From: Demequina globuliformis | GTDB lineage: Bacteria; Actinomycetota; Actinomycetes; Actinomycetales; Demequinaceae | NCBI RefSeq assembly: GCF_000975155.1 | Contig: NZ_BBRG01000005.1 | Coordinates: 1-64,000, forward strand | Reading direction: 5' to 3' | Length of the DNA: 64,000 nucleotides | Part shown: in pieces, positions 8,399-13,162 of the stretch | Position numbering within the stretch: position 1 is the stretch's first letter | Layout of the letters: every line of letters begins with the position of its first letter | Translations under genes and position numbers: made by a program | The notes under the pieces: generated by a model | What the model was told of the DNA's origin: nothing | Databases searched by the model: none | What the model saw: the letters and a program-made list of their open reading frames with translations, nothing else

Positions 8399-9598
8399 CT
8401 ACTTGGCGCCAATGCCAGGAAGCGCGAGCATGCGGTCGAGGGCGACCTTCGCCTCTGCCTGCGTTTGGGCATCCACCACGATCTGGTTGGGGACCTCGCC
8501 TGCGACGAGCGTCTCGAGAGCCCACACCAGGTGCGGCAAGTCGATGCGGTTCATGGTGGAGCAGAAGCACACCGTGTCCTCGAGGAACAGCACCTCTTTG
8601 TCGGGGTGAGCGTTTGCGAGGCGGCGTACGAGGTTGAGTTCGGTGCCAATGACCCACGACGATCCGGGTTCGGCCTCGTCAAGGGCCTTGATGATGTACT
8701 CGGTGGAGCCGACATAGTCGGCGGCGTTGACGACCTCGTGGGAGCACTCGGGGTGGACGATCACGTTGATGCCCGGCACCTTCTCCCGCGCCGCGTCGAC
8801 ATTTTCCTTGCGGAAACGACCGTGAACGGAGCAGTGGCCCTTCCACAGGATGATCCGGGCGGCCCGGAGCTCCTCGATGGTGTTGCCGCCGAACGGCTTG
8901 CGAGGGTCGTAAACGACGCAGTCGTCCAGGGACATGCCTAGCTTCAGCACGGCGGTGTTGCGGCCCAGGTGCTGATCAGGGAAGAAGAGGACCTTGCCGT
9001 CACCGTTGATGCCTCCGACCTGGTCGTATGCCCACCGGAGAGCGACCTCAGCGTTCGATGACGTGCACACGACACCCTCGTGGCGTCCGCAAAAGGCCTT
9101 GATGGCCGCCGTGGAGTTCATGTACGTCACCGGCACGGTGGAGTCGGCCACGCCTGCCTCGGCAAGTTGCTCCCAGGCGTCCTCAACCTGGTTGATGTTC
9201 GCCATGTCCGCCATTGAGCAACCGGCGGCCATGTCTGGCAGGACTACCTGCTGGGCATCGGTCGTGAGGATGTCGGCGCTCTCCGCCATAAAGTGCACGC
9301 CGCAGAACACGATGAACTCGGCCTCGGGGCGGGCGGCGGCCTTCTGCGCGAGCTTGAAGGAGTCGCCTGTGACATCGGCGAACTGGATCACTTCATCGCG
9401 CTGATAGTGGTGGCCGAGAATGAACACCCGGTTGCCCAGCGCCTCCTTGGCCGCACGCGCCCGTTCGACGAGGTCGGGGTCAGAGGCGTCAGGAAGTCCG
9501 CCAGGACAATCCACACCGCGCTCCGAGAGCGGATCGCGGCGGTTTCCCAGCAGGAGGAGTGCTGGGGACTGGCTCGGTTCGGTGAACGTCGTCTCCAT
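8399..9598 (-). CDS. nadA: Quinolinate synthase
   Basis: [4Fe-4S] enzyme of de novo NAD synthesis, condensing iminoaspartate with dihydroxyacetone phosphate. At 399 residues it is the long form. The family motifs are [30 protein letters not shown] (Cys99), [22 protein letters not shown] (Cys256), HPECSHEVV and [12 protein letters not shown] (Cys344, Cys346). By family knowledge, Cys99, Cys256 and one of the last pair should hold the cluster. ATG 9598 follows GACAAT by 6 bases with no ribosome site. nadB and nadC, usually adjacent in actinobacteria, are not in the window, so iminoaspartate must come from elsewhere. Confidence 0.95.
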
Positions 9599-9604
9599 TC
9601 GGTT

Positions 9605-9631
9605 ATTGTCTCACGTCCGCGACGGCACACT
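9605..9631. promoter_or_regulatory. Divergent -10 boxes for nadA and the glycerate-kinase-like gene
   Basis: GACAAT on the minus strand (9610-9605) precedes nadA ATG by 6 bases; CACACT on the plus strand (9626-9631) precedes ATG 9639 by 7 bases. TTGTCT at 9605-9610 lies 15 bases before CACACT and may double as its -35. Confidence 0.4.
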
Positions 9632-9638
9632 AGAGGGC

Positions 9639-10616
9639 ATGCACGTCCTTCTGCTGACCGACTCCTGGCCTGACACTTCAGGCCCGATGCTGCCGCAACG
9701 CGTCGCCGACATCGCGGCCTCTGCCTGGGGTGACGCTCAACCTGCCGATGCCGTGACGAGTATCGCGGTTGGCGATGGGGGACCGCGCAGTGCGGATGCG
9801 CTGTCAGGACCGGTGACGGCGGTGGGCGATGTGGAGGCTGTTGCGGCCGGACAGTCACTGTTCCTGCGGCCGGGCGGCTCGGCCCCGCGGTGGAATCCTG
9901 GTCACTTGTCGGACGCATTGTTCGCGCTCGCCCGCGATGCCAGCAGGGGCGAGCGCACGGTGGTGGTCCCGGTCGGGGATGCTGACCTCGCCGGGGACGC
10001 GACGGCGGTGTGGGGAGAATCCTTCACTCACGCCCGCCAAGCGCTGCGCCAGCTACCGCTGGAAGTTCTGGTGACGTCCTCACGACCGCTGTTGGGCCTC
10101 AAAGGCATGAGTGCGGCCGTGCGCGACCGGCGTGAAAAGGACCACGCCCTCGCCTTGGCCGCCCAGGAACAGGAACGGCGGTGGAGCGAGATCGCCCGCG
10201 AGGTCGACGCGGCATTGCCTCGTCCCCTCGTCGGACCAGCTCGCTTGTCTGACGTCCCGGGAAGCGGCGCTGCGCACGGACTCGCGTATTGCTTAGGTGC
10301 GGTGGGCGCCCGAGTGCTGCCGGCATCGGCCCGCCTCGCTCGCGCCGCGGGCGCCAGCGATCTGAGCGCGGATCTCGTGATCGCGATCACGGGCAGCCTC
10401 ACACCTCACACGTTGGATGAGGGAGTGACGCACGCGGCGAGCGCCATCGCCGGCGCGCGCGGAGTCCCGTGCGCGGTGTTAGGTGTCGAGCTGGGAGTCG
10501 GCAAACGTGACCTGATGGCTGCGGGTGTGGCGTCGGCGCACGAAGGACAGGTGGGGGCCGATGCGCTCGCGGAGCATGTGCGGCGGGTCGCCCGAACGTG
10601 GTCGCCCGCGCGGTGA
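9639..10616 (+). CDS. Degenerate glycerate kinase-like protein
   Basis: A 325-residue relative of glycerate 2-kinase (GlxK/GarK). The start LLLTDSWPDTSGPMLPQRVAD aligns with the family's DSFKGSLSA...EAA phosphate-binding region, VGDGGPRSADAL with ADGGEGT, and VPGSGAAHGLAYCLGAVGA with the nucleotide-binding PGTGAAGGLGFGL. The catalytic GEGSLD motif appears as AITGSLTPHTL and the N-terminal lysine of DSFKGS is missing, so kinase activity is doubtful. As I recall it, M. tuberculosis has a glycerate-kinase-family gene (Rv2205c) next to erpA (Rv2204c), so the pairing with erpA looks old. The start at 9639 was chosen over the 73-codon extension, which overlaps nadA. Confidence 0.65.
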   Translation: MHVLLLTDSWPDTSGPMLPQRVADIAASAWGDAQPADAVTSIAVGDGGPRSADALSGPVTAVGDVEAVAAGQSLFLRPGGSAPRWNPGHLSDALFALARDASRGERTVVVPVGDADLAGDATAVWGESFTHARQALRQLPLEVLVTSSRPLLGLKGMSAAVRDRREKDHALALAAQEQERRWSEIAREVDAALPRPLVGPARLSDVPGSGAAHGLAYCLGAVGARVLPASARLARAAGASDLSADLVIAITGSLTPHTLDEGVTHAASAIAGARGVPCAVLGVELGVGKRDLMAAGVASAHEGQVGADALAEHVRRVARTWSPAR

Positions 10617-10712: not shown

Positions 10713-11066
10713 ATGACTGATACCGCGACCGAGGTCCCCACTCACGGCGTGGTCATCACCGATGCCGCCGCGAGCAAGGTGAAGAGCCTTCTTGAGCAGG
10801 AGGGTCGTGACGACCTTCGCCTGCGCCTTGCTGTGCAGCCCGGAGGCTGCTCGGGCCTGATCTACCAGCTCTACTTCGACGAGCGTTCGCTCGACGGCGA
10901 CGCCGTGCGTGACTTCGACGGCGTTGGCGTGGTGGTGGACAAGATGTCGGTTCCGTACCTCGACGGTGCGACCATCGACTTCGCTGACACCATCGAGAAG
11001 CAGGGCTTCACGATCGACAACCCGAACGCTTCGAGCTCGTGCGCATGTGGTGATTCCTTCGCCTAA
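10713..11066 (+). CDS. erpA: Iron-sulfur cluster insertion protein, A-type carrier
   Basis: HesB/IscA-family carrier of 117 residues that hands Fe-S clusters to apoenzymes. The three conserved cysteines are present: Cys46 in QPGGCSGLIYQLYF, and Cys110 and Cys112 in the C-terminal CAC. Likely clients in this window include QcrA, NadA and aconitase. It is followed by a 14-bp hairpin, so it ends its own unit. The convergent neighbour looks like a cysteine desulfurase but lacks the PLP lysine, so it is unlikely to be the sulfur donor. Confidence 0.95.
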   Translation: MTDTATEVPTHGVVITDAAASKVKSLLEQEGRDDLRLRLAVQPGGCSGLIYQLYFDERSLDGDAVRDFDGVGVVVDKMSVPYLDGATIDFADTIEKQGFTIDNPNASSSCACGDSFA

Positions 11067-11135: not shown

Positions 11136-12260
11136 TCACGCCTGCATCTGCTGACGTACCGCCTCGATGATGCGTGGCATCGTCGCCAGAAGGCGCTCGA
11201 TGTCTTGGTCTGCCACGCCCGGGTGCAGGCCAAACCGTAGATTTCCGTGGGTGAGGGCGCCCATGGCCGCCAATACCGAACTGGGCTGAAACGCGGCTTT
11301 GCCGCACGCGGAGCCGGAGCCGACGGAGAAGCCCTCTCGATCCAGGCGCGTCACCAGAGGCTCGCCGTCGAGGTACATGAACGCCGCGGTGAGAAGGTGG
11401 GGGAGACGCTCGATGGGGTCCCCGACGACGGTCACGCCCTCGAGTCGCTCCATCCCGGTGCGCAACCTCGCCACGAGGTCGTGCTGACGCTGCGTCTCGC
11501 GATCGAGATTCTCCATCCGTTCCTGGAGGGCGACAGCCGCGGCCAATGCGATCGGCACGCTGACGCCGCCTGGCGCCCAGTCGTCGTCCCCATCCGGCCA
11601 GGCCTGAAGCCACCGCGTCTGTGGGCGCAGGGCAATCACCGCGAGTCCGTGGGGAGCGCCCCAATCCGAGGGGTCCGCGAGCAATGCGTCCCAGTGCTCA
11701 GGGGCATCGATGTGCCCCACGCTCGCGGTCGCGTCAACGAGCATTGGCACTCCGGCGCCCTGGGCGGTTCCGTATAGGGATTCCAGGCGCTGAACTGTGC
11801 CGATCTCGTGATTGGCATGCTGGATGACCGCGACCGCCACGTCCGGCTGGCGCAGCGCTGCCGCAAAAGCGACCGGCTCGACATGGCCCTCGCGGTCCAC
11901 CGGAATGACGTCCACGGCGCCGGGGGCAAGGTAGTGAGCAACATCACTCAGCGCGTCGCGTTCAATCGCAGAAATGACGATGCGCCCGCGTCCCCGCCGG
12001 GCTGCCACCATCCCGCGCAAGAGGCGCTCGGCGGCTAGCGGAACTGAATGAGCGAACCGCACGTTGTCTTGATGGACACGCAGAACCTCGGCGATCGCGT
12101 GGCGCGCACCATCGAGGAGAGCGCGGGCTTGACGCGACTCGCCGGTCAGGCGGGCAGGATCGGCCCACCCGTCGGTGAGGCCGGCCTGAAGGGCCTGGGA
12201 AGTGCGGGCTGTGACGGGGGCACGCCCGCCGGCGTCCAAATAGGTGCGGCGTGCTGGCAT
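11136..12260 (-). CDS. Cysteine desulfurase-like PLP fold protein lacking the PLP lysine
   Basis: A 374-residue class V aminotransferase-fold protein close to NifS/IscS: TYLDAGG at the start, IQHANHEIGTVQ (His148), MLVDATASVGHID (Asp176) and the cysteine loop FSVGSGSACGKAAF (Cys319). The motif that should read S-x-H-K-(W/F)-G-x-P-x-G is instead DPSDWGAPHGLAVI: Asp199 (codon GAT, 11666-11664) occupies the Schiff-base lysine position and Ser198 the histidine. The reading frame is intact, so this is not a recent pseudogene. It may bind PLP weakly or act as a non-catalytic partner. ATG 12260 lies 6 bases after TACCGT. It is divergent from ctaC. Confidence 0.75.
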   Translation of the reverse strand: MPARRTYLDAGGRAPVTARTSQALQAGLTDGWADPARLTGESRQARALLDGARHAIAEVLRVHQDNVRFAHSVPLAAERLLRGMVAARRGRGRIVISAIERDALSDVAHYLAPGAVDVIPVDREGHVEPVAFAAALRQPDVAVAVIQHANHEIGTVQRLESLYGTAQGAGVPMLVDATASVGHIDAPEHWDALLADPSDWGAPHGLAVIALRPQTRWLQAWPDGDDDWAPGGVSVPIALAAAVALQERMENLDRETQRQHDLVARLRTGMERLEGVTVVGDPIERLPHLLTAAFMYLDGEPLVTRLDREGFSVGSGSACGKAAFQPSSVLAAMGALTHGNLRFGLHPGVADQDIERLLATMPRIIEAVRQQMQA

Positions 12261-12292: not shown

Positions 12293-13162
12293 GTGTCCTC
12301 AAAAGTACGTCCCCGCATGCCCCGAAACGCCGCCGTCGGTGCCGGTGTAGCGGCAGTCTCACTCGTCCTGGCAGGTTGCTCCCAGGGAATCGAAAACGGT
12401 GCGCTGCCCTCGACCCCGGAGATCACTGACCAGACCGGCACGATCATCACGCTGTGGAACGGTTCCTGGATCGCTGCATTGGCCGTAGGTGTGCTCACCT
12501 GGGGCCTCATGTTGTGGTGCGTTGCCGTGTACCGCAAGCGCAAGGGTGATGAGAAGCTTCCCGTCCAGACGCGCGTGCACCTCCCATTGGAGATCATGTA
12601 CACGCTGGTGCCCATCATGGCCATCGGCGTGCTGTTCAAGTACACCGCCGAGGACATCGCGGAGATCACCGCGATCCCCGAAGACCCAGACGTGGAGATC
12701 CAGGTCGTGGGCAAGCAGTGGAGCTGGGACTTCAACTACCTCAGCGACGACGTCTTTGACCCGGGCGTCCAGGCTCAACTCACCGGTGAGGACGGCGTCG
12801 AGGCAACCCTGCCCACGCTGTACTTGCCTGTCGACGAGACCGTCCTCTTCACGCTCAACTCTCGTGACGTGATCCACTCCTTCTGGATCCCCGCGTTCCT
12901 CTACAAGGAGGACACGGTCCCCGGACGTACCAACGAATGGGCCGTGACGCCCACGCAAACGGGCACCTACCAGGGCAAGTGTGCGGAACTGTGTGGTGAA
13001 TACCACGCCTCGATGCTTTTCAACGTGAAGGTCGTCGAGCGTCCGGAGTATGACGCCTACATGGAGGAACTGCGAGCCAAGGGCTACGAGGGCAAGTTGG
13101 GCCTCGAGTACAGCCGCGACCAGGTTGTCGATTTCGCGACCGAGCACGGAGAGACTGAGTAA
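12293..13162 (+). CDS. ctaC: Cytochrome c oxidase subunit II
   Basis: CuA-bearing subunit of the aa3 oxidase, 289 residues. A lipobox (VLAGC, Cys29) indicates a lipoprotein signal. Two transmembrane helices follow at about 53-78 and 98-118, then the extracytoplasmic cupredoxin domain with QWSWDF and the CuA site HSFWIP plus [12 protein letters not shown]. The GTG at 12293 fits leaderless spacing behind TAGACT. The stop codon overlaps the ctaD start by one base (TAATG), so the two are translationally coupled. In actinobacteria the CuA domain receives electrons from the diheme QcrC encoded further right. Confidence 0.95.

Follow-up and report, generated by a model that had tools for sequence, protein, structure and literature searches.

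An IscS-type protein encoded between erpA and ctaC in Demequina and related actinobacteria has lost the PLP lysine and, almost certainly, desulfurase activity

The window analyzed here, a stretch of 64,000 nucleotides from a Demequina globuliformis contig, carries a gene whose product resembles the cysteine desulfurases NifS and IscS but has aspartate at the position of the PLP-binding lysine. The frame begins with ATG and, as the first-pass annotation had stated, runs without interruption (Table 1). Its product matched Pfam Aminotran_5 (4.8e-24), and the NifS and IscS models of NCBIfam were top-scoring, yet far under their equivalog cut-offs. The nearest named relative was D. flava (81% identity), the closest solved relative by PDB sequence search was A. 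fulgidus IscS (4eb5), and a search of the plasmid collection returned only distant NifS proteins plus one nearer actinobacterial relative. The AlphaFold model, built from 116 aligned sequences, reached a pLDDT of 94.7 and a pTM of 0.92, the only stretch with a pLDDT <50 being residues 320-323, immediately after Cys319. In both Foldseek (TM of about 0.9 to IscS/NFS1) and VIA, the nearest structures were those of M. tuberculosis IscS, NFS1, E. coli IscS, and A. fulgidus IscS, which VIA ranked equal (Z of about 46-47, about 2 A, about 366 residues); the fold by itself is uninformative about activity.

Table 1. Positions in the window of the IscS-type gene, its key codons, and its neighbors
Feature	Position	Strand	Evidence
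erpA-type Fe-S carrier (PF01521), convergent neighbor	10713..11066	+	Pfam 7.8e-20
Lys-less IscS-type protein (class V aminotransferase fold), 374 aa	11136..12260	-	Open frame, Pfam Aminotran_5, AlphaFold model
Codon 342, conserved Arg (= E. coli IscS R354), family-invariant	11235..11237	-	Alignments
Codon 319, persulfide Cys of mobile loop, invariant	11304..11306	-	195/195 covering sequences
Codon 199, GAT = Asp at PLP-lysine position	11664..11666	-	Alignments
Codon 101, Arg at PLP-stacking His position	11958..11960	-	Alignments
ctaC (COX2), divergent neighbor	12293..13162	+	Pfam 2.2e-21

Residues 198 and 199 are Ser-Asp within PSDWGAPHGL, where true desulfurases have His-Lys in the same columns. 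This placement, proposed in the first-pass annotation, held in every alignment, with no gap shifting the Lys to another column and no Lys nearby, and the only Lys of the whole protein, K321, is not conserved. Comparison with close homologs revealed that the Lys-to-Asp change is fixed across the clade, Asp being present in 43 of 43 Demequina genomes read (window genome included), so a strain-unique change was ruled out. A sequencing error at codon 199 could likewise be excluded without raw reads, because the 42 other, independent Demequina assemblies share the Asp.

The loss of the Lys extends well beyond the genus. Bacterial families are designated here by codes (f1, f9, f12, etc.). Among 113 copies read in 112 genomes, which span seven families of the order, none had Lys at position 199, the set comprising all sampled genomes of the order that were positive for the protein family together with extra congeners; Asp was found in f1, f9, and f12 (one f9 copy has Glu), and Ser, Ala, Thr, or Gly in f5, f15, f17, and f18. 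At E<=1e-40, the protein family was matched in 103 of 396 sampled genomes of the order and 209 of 395 of the class, while no match was obtained in at least 13 further families sampled from the order, so the gene is dispensable in related bacteria. Outside the order, 20 of the families read include at least one member with Lys and the majority of other families retain SAHKWGGP, whereas Lys-less members were detected in f41, f44, f48, f50, f51, f57, and part of f54. The tree separated the protein family from IscS-type outgroups and from the genome's own IscS-like enzyme by a branch with 100% SH-aLRT, and required at least six Lys/non-Lys changes inside it, including a separate origin of Asp in f51; the exact number is unsure, several of these branches being long and some of the support weak. 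One genome of another genus in the same family as Demequina (G539, 1.9 Mb) harbored two Lys-less copies (L140 and L141), one with Asp and one with Ser, the latter with a GCGCTC Cys loop. In addition, three copies (L169, L188, and L218, from genomes G307, G352, and G200) had one in-frame stop each within the matched region and are possibly pseudogenes or assembly errors. The papers searched contained no account of this actinobacterial erpA-ctaC-linked family, nor of a desulfurase pseudoenzyme from bacteria.

The convergent orientation to erpA and the divergent orientation to ctaC, both correctly described before, are conserved far beyond the genus, and the order erpA> CD< ctaC> recurs across the class in many orthologs; erpA went undetected in some ortholog stretches, in part since several of them were short. 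Between nadA and erpA, positions 9420-10616 (+ strand) encode a divergent protein with a glycerate kinase family match (PF02595, 8.3e-10, residues 177-364 of the scanned stretch). Lys-bearing orthologs (e.g., Actinoplanes L047, f37) lie at the same genomic position, share 40-45% identity with the window protein, and fall into one clade with it, but their SAHKWGGP motif and PLP-stacking His are intact, and they are presumably active. The Lys forms of f37 have a C-terminal extension, which in the single protein tested proved to be a TusA domain.

To characterize the remodeled active site, 108 positions conserved in at least 90% of the Lys forms were used as a reference, seven of which were assigned to the PLP side through their homology to positions of E. 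coli IscS. The Asp clade had lost 22 of the 108, and the losses were concentrated on the PLP side, where six of seven were gone (73, 74, 101, 196, 198, and 199, leaving Asp176), compared with 16 of the 101 remaining conserved positions (Fisher p 2e-4). Similarly, in Lys-less lineages outside the order, six of the 11 conserved positions lost were PLP-side. The contact substitutions are His101->Arg, Thr74->Pro, Gln179->Ala, Ser196->Asp, and His198->Ser. The first-pass annotation had listed Asp176, Cys319, and His148 as retained family residues; the alignments bear out the first two, but His148, which sits in QHAN, is not the PLP-stacking His of the family (E. coli IscS H104), whose position is 101. 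On the other side of the active site, Cys was present at 319 in all 195 sequences covering the position, and Arg342 and Asn150 were invariant among Lys-less forms. Moreover, ten positions, including Arg101, His148, His183, and Asp199, were each occupied by one residue in at least 95% of the Asp clade, and this residue differs from the consensus of the Lys forms. No conserved alternative Lys column was detected among 141 Lys-less orthologs, and in 77 of them the homologous domain contains no Lys at all, making an internal aldimine impossible there. E. coli IscS is inactivated by each of the substitutions H104Q, Q183E, and K206A (PMC9978102), and the window protein has a changed residue at every one of the three equivalent positions. 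Class I desulfurases (E. coli IscS, M. tuberculosis IscS 4isy, and NFS1) share the fold, Cys loop, Arg, Asp176, and Asn150 with the window protein but differ in having the PLP lysine and most PLP contacts. Given that the Lys and the cofactor site are lost and few or no Lys residues are left, the protein is almost surely no desulfurase, and the earlier reading of it as a pseudo-enzyme is well supported, the Lys, the PLP-stacking His, and the Gln, Ser, Thr, and His contacts all being gone in the clade.

The search for a second true desulfurase in the genome revealed two intact enzymes: SufS (SAHKMLGP) in a sufC-sufS-sufU cluster and an IscS-like enzyme (SAHKVGGP). SufU, located beside sufS rather than at the erpA-ctaC locus, is the sole NifU_N protein of the genome, and no TusA was detected in the genome. 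The IscS-like enzyme was present in 79 of 80 genomes tested, whether or not the erpA-ctaC-linked protein has Lys, and its presence therefore offers no contrast that would explain the Lys loss; G539 was the sole genome without a match (E<=1e-60).

Pairwise Nei-Gojobori analysis gave median dN/dS values of 0.295 in Demequina, 0.34 in f9, and 0.325 in f17, compared with 0.19-0.23 in Lys-bearing families and 0.08 for Demequina erpA; the values for ctaC are unreliable, as several matches are possibly partial. The gene is thus under purifying selection, weaker than in the Lys forms. Such relaxation would be expected if the Lys had been lost early in the order, given other desulfurases, and the copies had since been drifting toward loss with no specific function. 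The absence of detectable matches in many families of the order, the near-universal IscS-like enzyme, and the very divergent or just partly matched state of some f9 copies (L138, L139, and L162) are consistent with slow decay of this kind. However, no Lys was kept or regained in the order, yet frames are intact in seven families with a median dN/dS of about 0.3, and a decaying gene would not be expected to preserve precisely the Cys half of the active site, with Cys319, Arg342, and Asn150 invariant and ten positions newly fixed. Slow decay is therefore considered unlikely.

The closest precedent is A. fulgidus IscS, in which Asp occupies this position on a separate branch. The archaeal protein is reported to be devoid of desulfurase activity owing to the Lys-to-Asp change and to contribute Cys321 as a ligand of an IscU-bound [2Fe-2S] cluster (PMC7585200; PMC9769115; structures 4eb5, 4eb7, and 4hvk, and D199K mutant 4r5f). 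M. acetivorans IscS1 is likewise without the Lys (PMC7585200). In an IscS relative from Candidatus Aenigmatarchaeota (L048), which clusters with A. fulgidus IscS, the place of the PLP lysine is taken by Leu, making it a further Lys-less archaeal member. A. fulgidus IscS and the window protein have in common the IscS fold, the Asp in place of the PLP lysine, an Ala at the Gln position, and the Cys loop. In contrast, A. fulgidus IscS retains Thr, His, and Ser on the PLP side and has Leu at the Arg342 column, the reverse of the Demequina clade, and it works with IscU, whereas Demequina has only SufU. Although 4eb5 was the best PDB sequence match, common descent was unsupported by either tree: A. 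fulgidus IscS falls outside the actinobacterial family with full support, and many lineages of that family keep Lys, indicating an independent loss.

Considering the conserved Cys loop, a role in sulfur or Fe-S transfer that depends on Cys319 is on balance the favored function, and we lean, to a similar degree, toward viewing the protein as an erpA-ctaC-linked member of the IscS type that lacks PLP chemistry while keeping the cysteine half of the active site. As the first-pass annotation had suggested, it may bind partners or a sulfur carrier. Cysteine cleavage would have been abandoned, and the mobile Cys319 loop could accept a persulfide from SufS or the IscS-like enzyme and hand it on; alternatively, Cys319 might provide a thiolate ligand while [2Fe-2S] clusters are assembled or transferred together with a carrier, SufU or ErpA for instance, as proposed by analogy with what A. 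fulgidus IscS does with IscU. The new Arg101-Asp199 pair may hold the emptied cofactor pocket. Against a role of Cys319 stand the lack of TusA, the location of SufU, the only NifU_N protein, next to SufS instead of the gene studied here, the looser constraint (0.3 vs 0.19-0.23 in Lys-bearing families), and the dispensability of the gene in related bacteria; the conserved Cys319 may also be kept for folding.

It is quite improbable that the protein acts solely as a regulatory or structural partner of a true desulfurase or an Fe-S protein through its retained IscS surface, with the Cys chemically unused: the full-length IscS fold, the IscS-IscU and NFS1-ISCU complexes among the top structural matches, and the linkage to erpA would fit such a partner, but a purely structural role needs no invariant Cys319 and Arg342 in the former active site. 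A protein that still binds PLP without a covalent anchor and performs some reaction on cysteine or another amino acid is very unlikely, for although PLP is present in the crystal of A. fulgidus IscS with Asp199 (PMC9769115), E. coli IscS K206A retains some PLP (PMC9978102), and Asp176, Asn150, and Arg342 are kept here, K206A is inactive (PMC9978102) and the window protein has also lost the Thr, His, Gln, Ser, and His contacts, of which A. fulgidus IscS keeps Thr, His, and Ser.

Beyond the Cys319-dependent role in the window protein, it may tentatively be proposed, at somewhat short of even chances, that a sulfur-trafficking type has been made repeatedly from a cysteine desulfurase over many actinobacterial families through loss of the PLP half of the active site and retention of the Cys/Arg half, with Lys-to-Asp arising independently there and in archaea. 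The actinobacterial case differs from the A. fulgidus IscS precedent in its ancestry, in the half of the active site that is kept, and in the absence of IscU. Annotation by homology would tend to label the gene a cysteine desulfurase, while the sequences argue otherwise in whole families. Moreover, the natural series from Lys-bearing to Lys-less forms at one genomic location offers a setting in which the role of the IscS Cys loop can be told apart from the chemistry, and the ligand role proposed for A. fulgidus IscS also becomes testable in culturable bacteria.
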